In this document: positions 25,036 through 55,522 of the stretch, piece by piece
How positions within the stretch are numbered: position 1 is the first letter of the stretch
Layout: each line of letters opens with the position of its first letter
NCBI RefSeq assembly: GCF_025144145.1
Contig: NZ_CP083546.1
Location: 4,002,001 to 4,066,000, forward strand
DNA: 64,000 bases
Origin: Leisingera sp. M658
GTDB lineage: Bacteria; Pseudomonadota; Alphaproteobacteria; Rhodobacterales; Rhodobacteraceae
Direction: 5' to 3'
Made by a program: the position numbers and the translations under genes
Notes under the pieces: generated by a model
The model's input: the letters and a program-made list of their open reading frames with translations, nothing else
Database searches by the model: none
What the model was told of the DNA's origin: nothing

Positions 25036-25128
25036 TGAACTTTCATCCAGAGCAAGGGTCGAGAGGCTGAGCGCTTCATCATCGCGCTTCCCGGGGAAGC
25101 CTTTCCTAGGCTCTGGCCTCATTGAGTT

Positions 25129-25939
25129 TCAAAGCCAGTAGATAACGAGGGCTGCAAGCGCGATTGCTGACAGGAAGACTTTTGGGCATCTGTCGTATCG
25201 TGTTGCAACCCGCCGCCAGTCCTTCAGCCTGCCGAACATAATCTCAATGCGGTTGCGCCGCTTGTACCGGCGCTTGTCGTATCTGATGGCTTTCTTGCGC
25301 TGCTTTCGACCGGGGATGCAGGCGCGTATCCCTTTGTCTTTCAACGCTTCTCTAAACCAATCGGCATCATACCCGCGATCTCCGAGAAGCCATTGGACGT
25401 CAGGCAGGCCACTTAGCAGCGCCTTTGCACCGGTGTAATCACTGACCTGTCCGGCGGTCACGAACAGGTTCAGTGGACGCCCCTGGCTGTCACAGATTGC
25501 GTGCAGCTTAGTGTTCATGCCGCCCTTAGTGCGCCCGATCAGGCGCCCACGCCCCCCTTTTTAACCCCAAGACTGGAGGCCGTACGGTGTGCTTTCAGGT
25601 AAGTTGCGTCCATTGCCCGGCAGGGCATCACGAGGTGATGTCCCGAGAGGGGATCATCACGGTCTTTTCCTCACCGTGATCAGCAGCCAGACCGGCCATC
25701 ATCTGGGCAAAGATGCCTTTGTCGCTCCACCGCTTCCAACGGTTGTACAAAGTCTTGTGCGGGCCGTAATCTTTGGGAGCATCACGCCAGCGCAAGCCAT
25801 TGCGATTGATGAAGATAATTCCGCTCAGAACACGCCGGTCATCAACACGCGGCTTACCGTGGGACTTCGGAAAATAAGGCTCAAGACGGGCCATCTGCGC
25901 GTCCGTCTGCCAGAAAAGATCAGACATATCACCGCTCAT
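25129..25939 (-). pseudogene. IS5-family (IS427-like) transposase, interrupted
   Basis: The N-terminal part starts at 25939 (MSDLFWQTDAQMARLEPYFP, NRNGLRWRDAPKDYGPHKTL). The C-terminal part ends at 25129 (LLGDRGYDADWF with the second catalytic Asp, RRNRIEIMFGRLKDWRRVAT with the Glu). Between them a 41-base palindromic insertion at 25611-25651 splits the gene exactly before the codon of the first catalytic Asp (MI/DATYLKAH) and shifts the frame, with a stop inside the insertion. The remaining coding sequence is otherwise intact, so inactivation looks recent. Whether this IS normally uses a programmed frameshift does not matter here, because the break is at another place. Confidence 0.88.
25611..25651. 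repeat. 41-bp three-hairpin palindromic element, copy A
   Basis: Three consecutive small hairpins: GCCC-GGCA-GGGC, ATCAC-GAG-GTGAT, CCC-GAGA-GGG. Its flanks match copy B (55107-55147) at 27 of 28 positions, while the central hairpin differs by two compensated base pairs and by its loop. The end of the insertion is uncertain by one base because of the target sequence. Confidence 0.85.
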
Positions 25940-25976
25940 TTTTCGAACCGTGAATCACACCACCCACCGGAAATCA

Positions 25977-26949
25977 ATGGGTCCTGACCCTAAGAAGTAC
26001 AAGAGCAAGAATTGGTCGTCTTACAATGACAGCTTGAAGCAGCGCGGATCGTTGTCAATTTGGTTTGATCCGGAGATGGTTTGGACGCCGCCGCCAAACG
26101 GCAAGCGAGGTCGGCAACAGCAATTCAGTGATGCCGCCATTCAGACGTGTCTGACGTTGAAGATCCTGCTTGGCATGCCGCTTCGGCAGACAACTGGGTT
26201 CGTCCAGAGCCTGTTGCGATTGGTCGGCCTGGACTGGACCGCGCCGGGCTTCAGCACCTTATGCCGCCGCCAGAGAACACTGAATGTGGGCCTGTCATAT
26301 CGAGGCTCCAAAGGTCCATTGCACCTCCTTATCGACAGCACAGGTATCAAGGCCGAAGGTGAAGGCGAGTGGAGTGCGGAGGATCAGAAAACAGTCCGGG
26401 GGACTGTTTTCCCGACAAACGCGCAAGCATGGCGGCCCCAAACGCCGCATCTGGCGAAAAATACATATTGGAATTGACGAAGAAACACTGGAGGTTCGGA
26501 TGGTCGAGGTCACCAGCAGCAACGTCGGAGATGCTCCCATGCTGCCAGAACTTCTGAACCAAATCCCGCCCGACCAGGACATCGGCAGCGTCACAGCTGA
26601 TGGGGCATATGACACGCGTAAATGCCACGAGGCGATTGCCGCCAGAGGTGCCAATGCCGTGATCCCTCCGCGCAAGAATGCCAAGCCCTGGAACCCGGCG
26701 AACGCCGGAGCGATTGCCCGAAACGAAGCGGTCAGTGCGCAGCCATATCTGGGCCGCACCTTGTGGCGACGTTGGAGCGGATACCACCGCCAAAGCCGCG
26801 TCGAAACGAAGATGCATTGCATGAAACTACTTGGCCAATCGCTGGTGGCGAGGGACTTTGATCGGCAGGTTGCAGAAATCCACGTCCGCATCGCCATCCT
26901 CAACCGCTACACGGCTCTTGGCATACCCGTCACTGAGCCTGTAGGCTGA
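25977..26949 (+). pseudogene. IS5-family transposase, interrupted by a hairpin insertion
   Basis: A second, different IS5-type transposase. The N-terminal part (SLKQRGSLSIWFDPEMVW, LRQTTGFVQSLLRLVGLDW) leads to the first catalytic Asp in LLIDSTGIKAEGEGEW. Reading then leaves frame in an insertion of about 45 bases (26377-26421) that contains an 11-bp perfect stem, and resumes in another frame at RKHGGPKRRIWRKIHIGIDE, with the second Asp in VTADGAYDT and the Glu in RVETKMHCMKLLG, down to the normal end VTEPVG. The left end lies within 40 bases of the first IS, so the two elements abut or one was truncated by the other. Confidence 0.88.
26387..26411. repeat. Perfect 11-bp hairpin inside a transposase gene (palindrome type 2)
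   Basis: GAAAACAGTCC (26387-26397), loop GGG, GGACTGTTTTC (26401-26411). It is the core of an insertion of about 45 bases that breaks the transposase. A weaker relative is at 35493-35513. Confidence 0.8.
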
Positions 26950-35570: not shown

Positions 35571-35918
35571 GTGCGCAGCCAAATGAAAGTTTCCGAGCGT
35601 CGCGTTTGCCGCGTCCTGGGCCAGCTCCGATCCACACAGGGACAAGAGCCGGTTGGTCGGGTTGACGAAAACCGTCTGGTTGCGGACATGATCAAGTTAA
35701 CACGTCAGTATGAAGATACGGCTACGCCGCAGTTCCCGGTGGACGTATGCCCAATCTGGCTGAAAGCCGCAGTACGTCTCGTATCTTGCGCATCCGCTGC
35801 CCGGCAGGCGCATACGCGCTTGCTGCCGAGAGGGGGCAACCTCTTCATCGCGCTCCCTCTGGTCCCAAAAGAACCGCAAGGTAGCGGGCTGCTGATCGCC
35901 TCGCAGCAACACACCTGA
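35571..35918 (+). pseudogene. Truncated IS3-family orfB (transposase)
   Basis: The reading begins like IS3 orfB (RSQMKVSERRVCRVLGQLRS, DENRLVADMIKLTRQYE) and then breaks where the family continues GRYGYRRI. The catalytic DDE domain is absent. Sequence related to the 41-bp palindromic element occupies the 3' part (about 35795-35838). Confidence 0.7.
35795..35838. repeat. Relative of the 41-bp palindromic element, copy D
   Basis: It starts CGCTGCCCGGCAG like copies B and C and ends CCGAGAGGGGG like copies A and B, but the middle (GCGCATACGCGC) is different and longer. It lies in the debris of an IS3 orfB. Confidence 0.5.
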
Positions 35919-39405: not shown

Positions 39406-39439
39406 CGCTGCCCGGCAGTTGATTGCGCAGCAATCAATG
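39406..39439. repeat. Relative of the 41-bp palindromic element, copy C
   Basis: It begins CGCTGCCCGGCAG as in copy D and continues into TTGATTGC-GCA-GCAATCAA, an 8-bp stem that contains the central hairpin of copy B with the same loop. The third hairpin is missing. It lies at the end of the integrase pseudogene. Confidence 0.55.
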
Positions 39440-39949
39440 AGTGTGGATCATCACCATCTTTACTCTGCTCCAATCCGGCCCAAGGATTTCCTGGCGGCCC
39501 AAACCTGTCGTTATTGCGATCAGAATAATTGTCTCTAAAAACGGGTTTTCACTCCCGGCACATGCCTCGAAAAATGCCCCCGCTCTGCTGTGTTCAGATA
39601 TCTTACCCTGCCTTGCGGCTCCTTCAGTTTCTCGATCCGCTTCATGGGATTTTGTTCCAAACACCCATACTCCCGAACAGTAACTTTGAGGGCTTGATGG
39701 AGCCCCGACCAGTAGCGATTCACAGTCGCGTTCGAAACACCGCCTTCGCTCCTGCCAGTACCTCCCCAGCGTTGATTTCCGCTTCGATCTGCCTGACCCA
39801 AGCTTCAGCATCACTTTTGCGGTAAAGTAAGCCGGCTACTGCTCGTAACCCTTGCGGCGAATCTGAGCTTGCCAGCGAATACTTTTAGCACTTTGGCCCC
39901 TTTGAACAGACGCCAGCCCCACCGCTCCGTTGGCAATGTTGGTTGTCAT
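39434..39949 (-). pseudogene. Decayed tyrosine-recombinase (phage-type) integrase
   Basis: The gene can be followed in three frames on the minus strand: an N-terminal arm starting at ATG 39949 (IRWQAQIRRKGYEQ, then stop), a second piece (KSDAEAWVRQIEAEINAGE) and a core-binding domain (NATVNRYWSGLHQALKVTVR, RIEKLKEPQGRVRYLN), then a shift to the start of the catalytic domain (SENPFLETIILIAITTGLGR with the QEI block where family members have the first catalytic Arg). The His-x-x-Arg and Tyr regions are missing. Its position 114 bases from the 3' end of tRNA-Lys is the classic layout of a tRNA-targeted element. Confidence 0.8.
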
Positions 39950-47648: not shown

Positions 47649-47698
47649 TGCCGCGCGTTTAACGCTTGCAGAATGCCGCACGGATTGGCACGTTCGAC

Positions 47699-47844
47699 CT
47701 GTTCTCAGGGCGGGGCGGAATTCCCCACCGGCGGTAAGCGGGCATTGCCCCGTAAGCCCGCGAGCGGCTTCCGGAACCGGAAGTGTCCAGCAGATCTGGT
47801 GCGATTCCAGAGCCGACGGTTACAGTCCGGATGAAAGAGAGCGT
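47699..47844 (+). ncRNA. FMN riboswitch (RFN element)
   Basis: The conserved RFN blocks occur in order: TTCTCAGGGCGGGGCGGAAT, TTCCCCACCGGCGGTAA, AGCCCGCGAGCG, CAGCAGATCTGGTGCGATTC, CAGAGCCGACGGTTACAGTC and CGGATGAAAGAGAG. It binds FMN and ends about 75 bases before the lumazine-synthase gene. No strong T-rich terminator follows, so control of translation initiation is more likely than termination. Confidence 0.95.
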
Positions 47845-47920
47845 TCGCCAGGGCCGCTTAGAGCGGTGCCTGTTGTTCGTTATCGCCTTGGGTGACGTGT
47901 CAAAACGCAAGGAGTTAACA

Positions 47921-51621: not shown

Positions 51622-51664
51622 GCCATCCTCCTTTGCGGCGTTGGGCAAGGGTGGAGGCTGTCCA

Positions 51665-51745
51665 GTACCTTCCCTCCGCCGGTGTGATCCGGTTCAGGTT
51701 CAACGGGTGTCATCTCAGCGCTGTTGCGCACCCCGAGGTCGCGCG
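51665..51745 (-). ncRNA. TPP riboswitch (THI element)
   Basis: On the minus strand the THI blocks occur in order: GGGGTGC, GCTGAGATGACACCC, GTTGAACCTGAACCGGAT, CACACCGGCGGAGGGA. It lies 44 bases before the thiB start, so ThDP should shut down thiBPQ. Confidence 0.96.
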
Positions 51746-54735: not shown

Positions 54736-55039
54736 GGAACGCCACGAAACTTTGACTCTTTTGGCATCAAAACCTCAGGAAACAAGAAAATCACGTCATT
54801 CAAGCCTGACCCGAACGTCATGTTTTTCTGACCCAATATGAAAAGCGGCCCTTCCTCGAAGCTGCGGCGAAGACGTCGAAGGAGCCCTTTGCGACCAATG
54901 CTGAGCGATGCATAAATGACTGCTCCGCTCAGCCGTCGCTGGCGGGGCCGGGATGCCATCGACCTCCACCGGCAGAGAACGAGCCTCGTGACCAGGCGAC
55001 AGATATCCTTTTTCTCCAAAGCCCTTCTGCACCCAATAG
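54736..55039. other. Degenerate sequence between the matB remnant and the IS3 remnant
   Basis: No intact gene. Short open frames on the minus strand follow the IS remnant without family resemblance. It is likely mobile-element debris that replaced the 5' part of the matB gene. Confidence 0.45.
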
Positions 55040-55246
55040 TTTAGGACCGTGTCAGACACCTCCATGCCGTCATCCTTCGAGCGCCGTTTGTAGCACGTGC
55101 CATCGCCCCTCTCGGGACATTGCTGCGCAATGCCCTGCCGGGCAGTGGATGCCGTGCTTGCGGCACAATTCCTTGGCCCCAATGCCGACTTGGGGTTCCT
55201 TCGGGGTGCCAATGATCTGCTCTTCGCTGAATCGGCTTTTCCGCAT
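55040..55246 (-). pseudogene. IS3-family orfA remnant, interrupted by the 41-bp element
   Basis: The start at ATG 55246 reads MRKSRFSEEQIIGTPKEPQV, then GIGAKELCRKHGI, the helix-turn-helix of a common IS3 orfA. Within the recognition helix, where relatives continue SDATFYKWRSK, the 41-bp palindromic element is inserted; KRRSKDDGMEVSD resumes after it, and the rest of the IS is lost. Confidence 0.75.
55107..55147. repeat. 41-bp three-hairpin palindromic element, copy B
   Basis: On the minus strand: GCCC-GGCA-GGGC, ATTGC-GCA-GCAAT, CCC-GAGA-GGG. Outside the central hairpin it differs from copy A at one of 28 positions. In the central stem both sides are changed so that pairing is kept. Confidence 0.85.
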
Positions 55247-55522
55247 TGTCTGTCTCCTCGGGTGGAGAACAGGCTAGCGTAGAAACGCGGACATTTCTGG
55301 GGAGAAGGTCAGGAGCAGCACCTTGTTATCATCACAACTAACCTCGCCTTCTGCGGCGCCAAGAAGACAAGGCCAGAACCCAGTATATAGTTCTTGCAAC
55401 TTTCAAGTTGCGCGGGCTGCGAAATTCGAGCGGATGCGAGAACATCCCCGCCCAAGCGAAACCGTGCATGAGTATGCGGGATTGTTAAACATTCTACGTC
55501 CCGCCGGCATGTCGCGATACAC

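Follow-up and report, generated by a model that had tools for sequence, protein, structure and literature searches.

The locus at positions 55,107-55,147 (+) raises the question of what a 41-bp hairpin sequence, CCCTCTCGGGACATTGCTGCGCAATGCCCTGCCGGGCAGTG, is doing inside a transposase gene, and how nearly the same ends came to enclose a different stem in another such gene of the same stretch. The window that we analysed is the whole 64,000-nt stretch of Leisingera sp. M658 (contig NZ_CP083546.1, positions 4,002,001 to 4,066,000), and the positions of its copies are counted from its first letter. The best explanation, in which we place moderate confidence, is that the sequence (hereafter copy B) belongs to a family of non-autonomous mobile elements of very small size that occurs chiefly in Rhodobacterales.

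Copies, ends and host range of the element family

Copy B runs from CCCTCTC through a hairpin to CTGCCGGGCAGTG and lies antisense in the remnant of an IS3-type orfA, an open stretch at 55,073-55,273 (-). This stretch matched HTH_Tnp_1 (PF01527) with an E value of 9.8e-5 and 22.9 bits, slightly below the curated Pfam cut-off of 24.1. Copy A, at 25,611-25,651 (-), is also 41 bp long and sits just before the first Asp codon (MI|DATYLK) of the transposase of an 887-bp IS5-type insertion sequence (25,106-25,992, -), one of five near-identical copies in the genome, all of which carry the element; the same position is empty in loci L122, L124 and L125. A third copy of 40 bp was found at 35,795-35,834 (-) in surroundings that by eye resemble IS3 orfB, and a fourth, with its left end decayed to CACACTC, at 39,406-39,445 (-) in surroundings that by eye resemble a tyrosine integrase; neither surrounding gave a Pfam match. 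Outside the inner stem and loop, copies A and B agree at 27 of 28 positions (12/12 on the left, 15/16 on the right), and the inner part reads CACCTCGTG in A and TGCTGCGCA in B. The first-pass annotation had placed a second copy within the helix-turn-helix of an IS3 orfA, with this flank agreement, a change from ATCAC/GTGAT to ATTGC/GCAAT and a different loop. Its position proved right to the base, and the comparison of A and B reproduced the rest, the helix-turn-helix match falling just under the Pfam threshold.

The right part of the element, with up to three mismatches, occurs at two places in the window and at none in 100 shuffled versions. Across the genome (G000, 4.89 Mb) a strict pattern gave 56 matches (control 0), a loose pattern 66 (reversed control 1) and a right end with RYG 84 (control 1). 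The copies in the window and in the genome are not due to chance. A search of window positions 55,000-55,250 against Rfam returned no match to the element up to an E value of 1. Elsewhere in the window, Rfam identified an FMN riboswitch (RF00050) at 47,697-47,846 and a TPP riboswitch (RF00059) at 51,654-51,745.

To describe the family we drew elements from the window, from 45 stretches of the genome (L077-L121), from contig-scan and viral-contig loci and from three plasmid loci, 268 candidates in all. Ten with short flanks were dropped, reduction by flank similarity left 185 sites, and 26 of these with an unbroken stem of less than 5 bp, some of them real but decayed, were set aside to leave 159. 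The elements are 34-45 bp long and have fixed ends, CCCTCTC...CTGCCGGGCARYG, of 7 nt on the left and 13 nt (about 12-13 nt) on the right around the hairpin. The most frequent length was 41 nt (71 of the 159), followed by 37 (25), 43 (18) and 39 nt (15), the others being spread between 34 and 45. Since the sets used for logo, covariation and context are pattern matches, conservation of the ends is partly by construction, while the stem was left free. At L082:2515 (-) and L120:2129 (+) the right end reads CTGCCGGGTGACAG instead of CTGCCGGGCARYG. A 34-bp form in which the stem GGCGGCAAAGCCGCC is followed by GGGAC was found at L115:2039-2072, seemingly between genes, near 7540 in L170 and near 4632 in L264, where the stem is GGCGGTAGAGCCGCC; this form could be an extragenic relative or the source of the family.

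With the loose pattern, 167 of the family's 198 genomes gave a match, and controls were also non-zero, so that many single matches are chance. Applied across the class, the strict pattern found matches in four of the five genomes of one family, f1, and in one of the 380 remaining genomes. A contig scan gave at least 120 stretches with matches. At least seven of them, judged by their titles and taxonomy, are not from Rhodobacterales (two Vreelandella, Labrenzia, Rothia, a Rhizobiales, Synechococcus and Planctomicrobium), and four of these have chance-like stems of 2-4 bp. Viral contigs contributed 22 stretches with matches. The element appears largely confined to one bacterial family.

The central hairpin is kept in fold, not in letters

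All nine stem pairs were formed in 58 of the 71 sites of 41 nt, and an unpaired A stood at position 11 in 64. In a set of 53 distinct 41-nt copies, 97.7% of cells were paired (76.1 when shuffled) and 82 cells had changed on both sides (26.3 when shuffled). The covariation score was 0.500, as compared with 0.127 for shuffled sets (sd 0.016; reached by none of 500) and at most 0.103 for slid versions. Both-side changes occurred at seven of the nine pairs, a count that 52 of 500 shuffles reached and that is therefore not unusual alone; the first pair was G-C in 51 of the 53 sequences. Single copies folded modestly better than their shuffles, with z values of -1.29, -1.69 and -1.35. The central hairpin is kept in its fold and not in its letters, and the earlier proposal of a covarying central stem between fixed outer ends agrees with a score far above both kinds of control.

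Insertion sites and resident genes

At the IS5 empty site, ATGATC^GACGCA, the insertion was exactly 41 bp, and with the element removed the IS5 of the Leisingera genome aligned to an empty P. inhibens copy without gaps over 846 nt at 98.5% identity. An IS3-type sequence present in six copies in a second genome (G013) differed from its P. inhibens counterpart (L295) by insertions of 38, 40, 38 and 38 nt, and none of the six had another internal indel. No target duplication was seen at the empty sites of either insertion sequence. Over the 159 sites, the target logo showed C before the insertion (0.76), followed by G (0.78), A (0.65), T (0.55) and G (0.57), giving the consensus C^GA(T/C)G, or CATC^ on the reverse strand. 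A panel transposase could be aligned across the junction at 51 sites, cleanly at 37 and with gaps near the junction at 14. The element was in sense orientation at 23 of these sites and antisense at 28, and both orientations occurred even within a single gene; a translational bypass element (byp), which always needs the sense orientation, was rejected on this count. At the few sites inspected by eye, no matching take-off and landing codons were noticed. At the TAGQ|SDY site (L143, E040), removal of the element did not exactly restore the frame, as judged by eye. The element inserts precisely near C^GA(T/C)G, duplicates no target bases and can lie in either orientation. The structured mobile unit that the first-pass annotation had in mind is borne out by these exact empty sites.

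A second IS5 of the Leisingera genome carries five inserts of 43, 39, 39, 42 and 41 nt, the last four of which belong to the element family; target bases were not seen to be duplicated here either. The 43-bp insert, near 1862-1904 in L088 and also present in L126, is a hairpin of another kind that begins AGTGAGATGGGACCG and ends CGTAAGCCCAT; it occurs at nine places in the genome, by coordinates all within copies or pieces of the five-insert IS5. In Pseudorhodobacter turbinis (L127), a 39-bp copy with a different stem occupies the position that the second 39-bp insert has in L088; by eye this copy is in frame and free of stops, and the transposase around it is otherwise without indels.

We compared the resident genes with a panel of transposases, which is incomplete and includes some open reading frames of the Leisingera genome classified in this analysis, and which was applied alike to sites and controls. 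In the contig-scan loci, 58 of 104 sites matched the panel (46 did not), as compared with 24 of 520 positions drawn at random from the same loci at a distance of more than 1.5 kb; the 104 are 109 sites minus five with too little control sequence. Across all 185 sites the panel matched 103, and 19 control proteins matched none of the rest. Sites without a panel match whose stem reached 5 bp or more numbered 66, and 130 open reading frames flanking 65 of them were scanned against Pfam. The matches included rve (10), HTH_21 (7), rve_3 (5), Transposase_mut (4) and further transposase families, and outside transposases DNA_methylase (2), HATPase_c (2) and single cases of OCD_Mu_crystall, SDR and others. 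The Leisingera genome lists 41 sites, 40 of which were considered, L116:3356 being without its left half. At 26 of the 40 there was a Pfam match with E of 0.01 or less (some below the Pfam cut-off) or similarity to an annotated transposase; a further 12, judged by eye on family motifs, presumably lie in transposases, and two (L091 and L115) seem intergenic. Two Pfam runs on stretches holding elements gave a match at E 0.01 for 8 of 20, and among annotated plasmids no gene lay under the match in 54 of the 60 listed of 95 records, the gene table being incomplete and without pseudogenes. Host families comprised IS3, IS5, IS21, IS66, IS91, IS110, IS481 (by eye), IS630, IS1182 and tyrosine integrases. 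The preference for transposase genes is strong, not absolute. The emphasis once laid on an unrelated transposase gene as the host of copy B thus holds for the IS3 orfA itself and not for its being special, since the gene that holds copy A is likewise a transposase gene, that of an IS5; such residence is close to a rule across copies.

Some positions in diverged insertion sequences seem to have been hit repeatedly. In IS5-type transposases the first conserved Asp, catalytic by the DDE motif, is preceded by elements with different stems (E002, E119 and, with a weak alignment of 27%, E075; also E017, E142 and E152). Different stems also share positions 146 and 172 of IS5b and 88-89 of IS3 orfB. 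At IS5b 208 and IS91 129 the stems are of a single subfamily at each, and common ancestry is possible there. The insertion events look independent, since members of one stem subfamily turn up at unrelated sites and one site can hold different stems. The three genes counted contain 22-31 CGAY sites each on both strands, so repeated hits need either a stronger preference than CGAY or many events.

Insertion sequences interrupted in this way have amplified. The five full IS5 copies of the Leisingera genome differ at 3 of 886 positions compared, and all have the element before the first conserved Asp; with the element skipped, orfA and orfB, which in IS5 are usually joined by frameshifting, are open in all five. 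A full-length empty copy of this IS5 was not found in the genome; a further fragment, 308 nt long, stops short of the insertion site. The six full copies of the G013 IS3 share four elements, both of their reading frames are open once these are skipped, with no other indels or stops, and a full-length empty copy was not found in that genome. Duplications of 3 bp flank three of the copies (CAG at L137, GAT at L140 and AAG at L141) and none flank those at L136, L138 and L139. The differences among the six, 3 silent, 12 replacing and 0 stop, are roughly what neutrality would predict, and in L141 the orfA ATG is lost. The seven full copies of the five-insert IS that we inspected each bear an extra deletion of 1 nt or 7 nt; L104 and L109 have frameshifts outside the inserts, yet show 9-bp duplications. 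In a further genome (G035), all three IS5 copies contain a nonsense codon.

Mobilisation and relation to known systems

The most likely reading, which we hold with middling confidence, is that the element is non-autonomous and recognised by its structure, that it rides in insertion sequences, and that a trans-acting enzyme moves it as a folded single strand. Such an enzyme would recognise the hairpin, the unpaired base and the end sequences on the single strand, and would cut both ends and link the element to a short target sequence, in the manner of the IS200/IS605 and REP enzymes. The excess in insertion sequences would arise from survival and hitch-hiking, because these sequences are dispensable, copy themselves and can be transferred; hitch-hiking accounts for the spread, but not by itself for several independent hits in one insertion sequence. 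At least some interrupted insertion sequences were probably moved by a transposase acting in trans, since L104 and L109 amplified though broken outside their inserts and the G035 copies carry the nonsense codon. Against such mobilisation in trans stands the fact that the IS5 of the Leisingera genome and the IS3 of G013 now have no full-length empty helper copy in their genomes.

The TnpA-REP-like tyrosine transposase named in the first-pass annotation as a possible mobiliser did not hold up: a profile search of the Leisingera genome gave no match to Y1_Tnp (PF01797). This domain was present in 2 of 12 genomes selected because they are rich in loose matches, one of which (G137) has ten matches that look mostly chance, and in 1 of 10 genomes without a match, or 3 of 22 overall. 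A search for the end patterns near the Y1_Tnp locus of G007 (L132) turned up a single CCCTCTC and no other match. We rejected RAYT/TnpA-REP as mobiliser because PF01797 is missing from the Leisingera genome and from 10 of the 12. RVT_1 (PF00078) likewise gave no match in the Leisingera genome; it was found in 7 of 15 genomes that carry the element and in 1 of 13 that have no pattern match, a weak trend.

Other readings account for parts of this picture. Selection on the fold and arm-templated repair both predict the compensated stem changes. Template switching between arms, a known process for quasi-palindromes, would correct imperfect hairpins and make those changes mutational; in its favour, the G013 copies L136 and L138 differ at a stem base, with an effect on the pairing. 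It leaves the kept unpaired A and the discrete stem subfamilies unexplained and is silent on mobility, and as a full account we regard it as unlikely, if worth keeping in view. If a double-strand enzyme (a serine or tyrosine recombinase, or an IS110-type recombinase) inserted the element at a short core, with the hairpin a by-product of the site, then the absence of target duplication and the short C^G core preference would follow. The stem letters, however, change freely with pairing kept, unlike a recombinase site that is read by sequence, and a double-stranded circle of 41 bp would be implausibly small; we consider this mechanism distinctly unlikely.

The fact that all full-length IS5 copies of the Leisingera genome (5) and IS3 copies of G013 (6) are filled and otherwise open could be taken to mean that the elements behave like introns, being excised at the DNA or RNA level, or passed over by ribosomes, with the interrupted transposases still produced. 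The flanking duplications of three G013 copies and the several insertions within conserved motifs fit this as well. Both orientations occur, however, the G013 differences look neutral, L141 has no orfA ATG, and L104, L109 and the G035 copies are broken outside their inserts. Purifying selection after insertion, for which dN/dS of 0.137 between L088 and L126 might speak, was set aside: by eye the block between the inserts is near-identical and the flanks differ, which suggests recombination. Intron-like behaviour therefore seems improbable, and its bolder form, an orientation-independent intron-like family of 34-45 nt specialised on transposase genes, in which the hairpin is the removal signal and insertion sequences with four or five elements are still active, a long shot. 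Retention as a coding palindrome, translated in frame like the RPE of Rickettsia, would agree with frames that are open more often than in shuffled sequences (0.886 vs 0.712 over 159 elements, 78 of them open in all six) and with the in-frame copy of L127. But the length is a multiple of 3 in just 21 of 159 elements, which largely refutes in-frame tolerance, and the 41-bp IS5 copy shifts the frame and meets a stop; we find this hardly credible.

The element would rank among the smallest structure-conserved mobile elements, with a pronounced preference for other mobile elements. Its varied stems, together with its hits at the same sites, amount to a mutagenesis by nature of the features that a hairpin-reading enzyme requires. 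The puzzle is how insertion sequences multiply when inserts break the frame within conserved catalytic motifs and the genome has no intact copy left, which is directly testable in cultured roseobacters.

A literature search that included the element's own strings found no description of the family within its coverage, which left subscription journals largely outside. IS200/IS605 elements insert without target duplication, and the exact empty sites of the element likewise have none. It differs from them in its size of about 41 nt, in having no tnpA or tnpB inside and in the missing Y1_Tnp match in the Leisingera genome. The ends of IS200/IS605 form hairpins that carry an unpaired base and are recognised in single-stranded form (PMC8266576); hairpin and unpaired base are a further likeness, and recognition as a single strand would be another. 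The GTAG REP/TnpA-REP system also uses a hairpin, with an unpaired feature in some families and a tag (PMC8266576, available part). The likeness extends to the small imperfect hairpin, that unpaired feature, the fixed tag beside a variable stem, the high copy number and the lack of genes, as far as the accessible portions of PMC8266576 and PMC3733652 go. However, the 41-nt consensus has no GTAG on either strand, the element has fixed sequence on both sides of its stem, and it is often in transposase genes, whereas REPs are described there as extragenic (PMC8266576, PMC3733652).

CGTC REPs resemble the element in host and stem, being mostly alphaproteobacterial with heterogeneous stems of 8-9 bp and, in the text available, without a known dedicated transposase (PMC3733652). 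They are defined there by CGTC (or TGTC/CCTC) beside a stem of 8-9 bp whose first two pairs are A-T, and by a CCA tail, and their associations with transposase genes are given as few and fortuitous (PMC3733652). The stem of our element has no adjoining CGTC (a CCTC is present but two bases off), its first pair is G-C and not A-T, and it has a fixed right end of 12-13 nt, TGCCGGGCARYG, not a CCA tail. The RPE of Rickettsia is palindromic, lies inside genes and has an alphaproteobacterial host, but in the part of the source available it is 105-146 bp long and in frame (PMC2229807), and our element is 34-45 bp and mostly out of frame. RUP of Streptococcus pneumoniae, as the same portion of that source describes it, is bounded by terminal inverted repeats, is associated with TA-linked duplications and contains stops in every frame (PMC2229807). 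The element, by contrast, makes no duplication and has mostly open frames, and its CCCTCTC and CARYG are not inverted repeats. RUP is nevertheless a small non-autonomous element reported from transposase genes that belong to more than six IS families (PMC2229807, available text), and it is a precedent for a small element that resides in many transposase genes.
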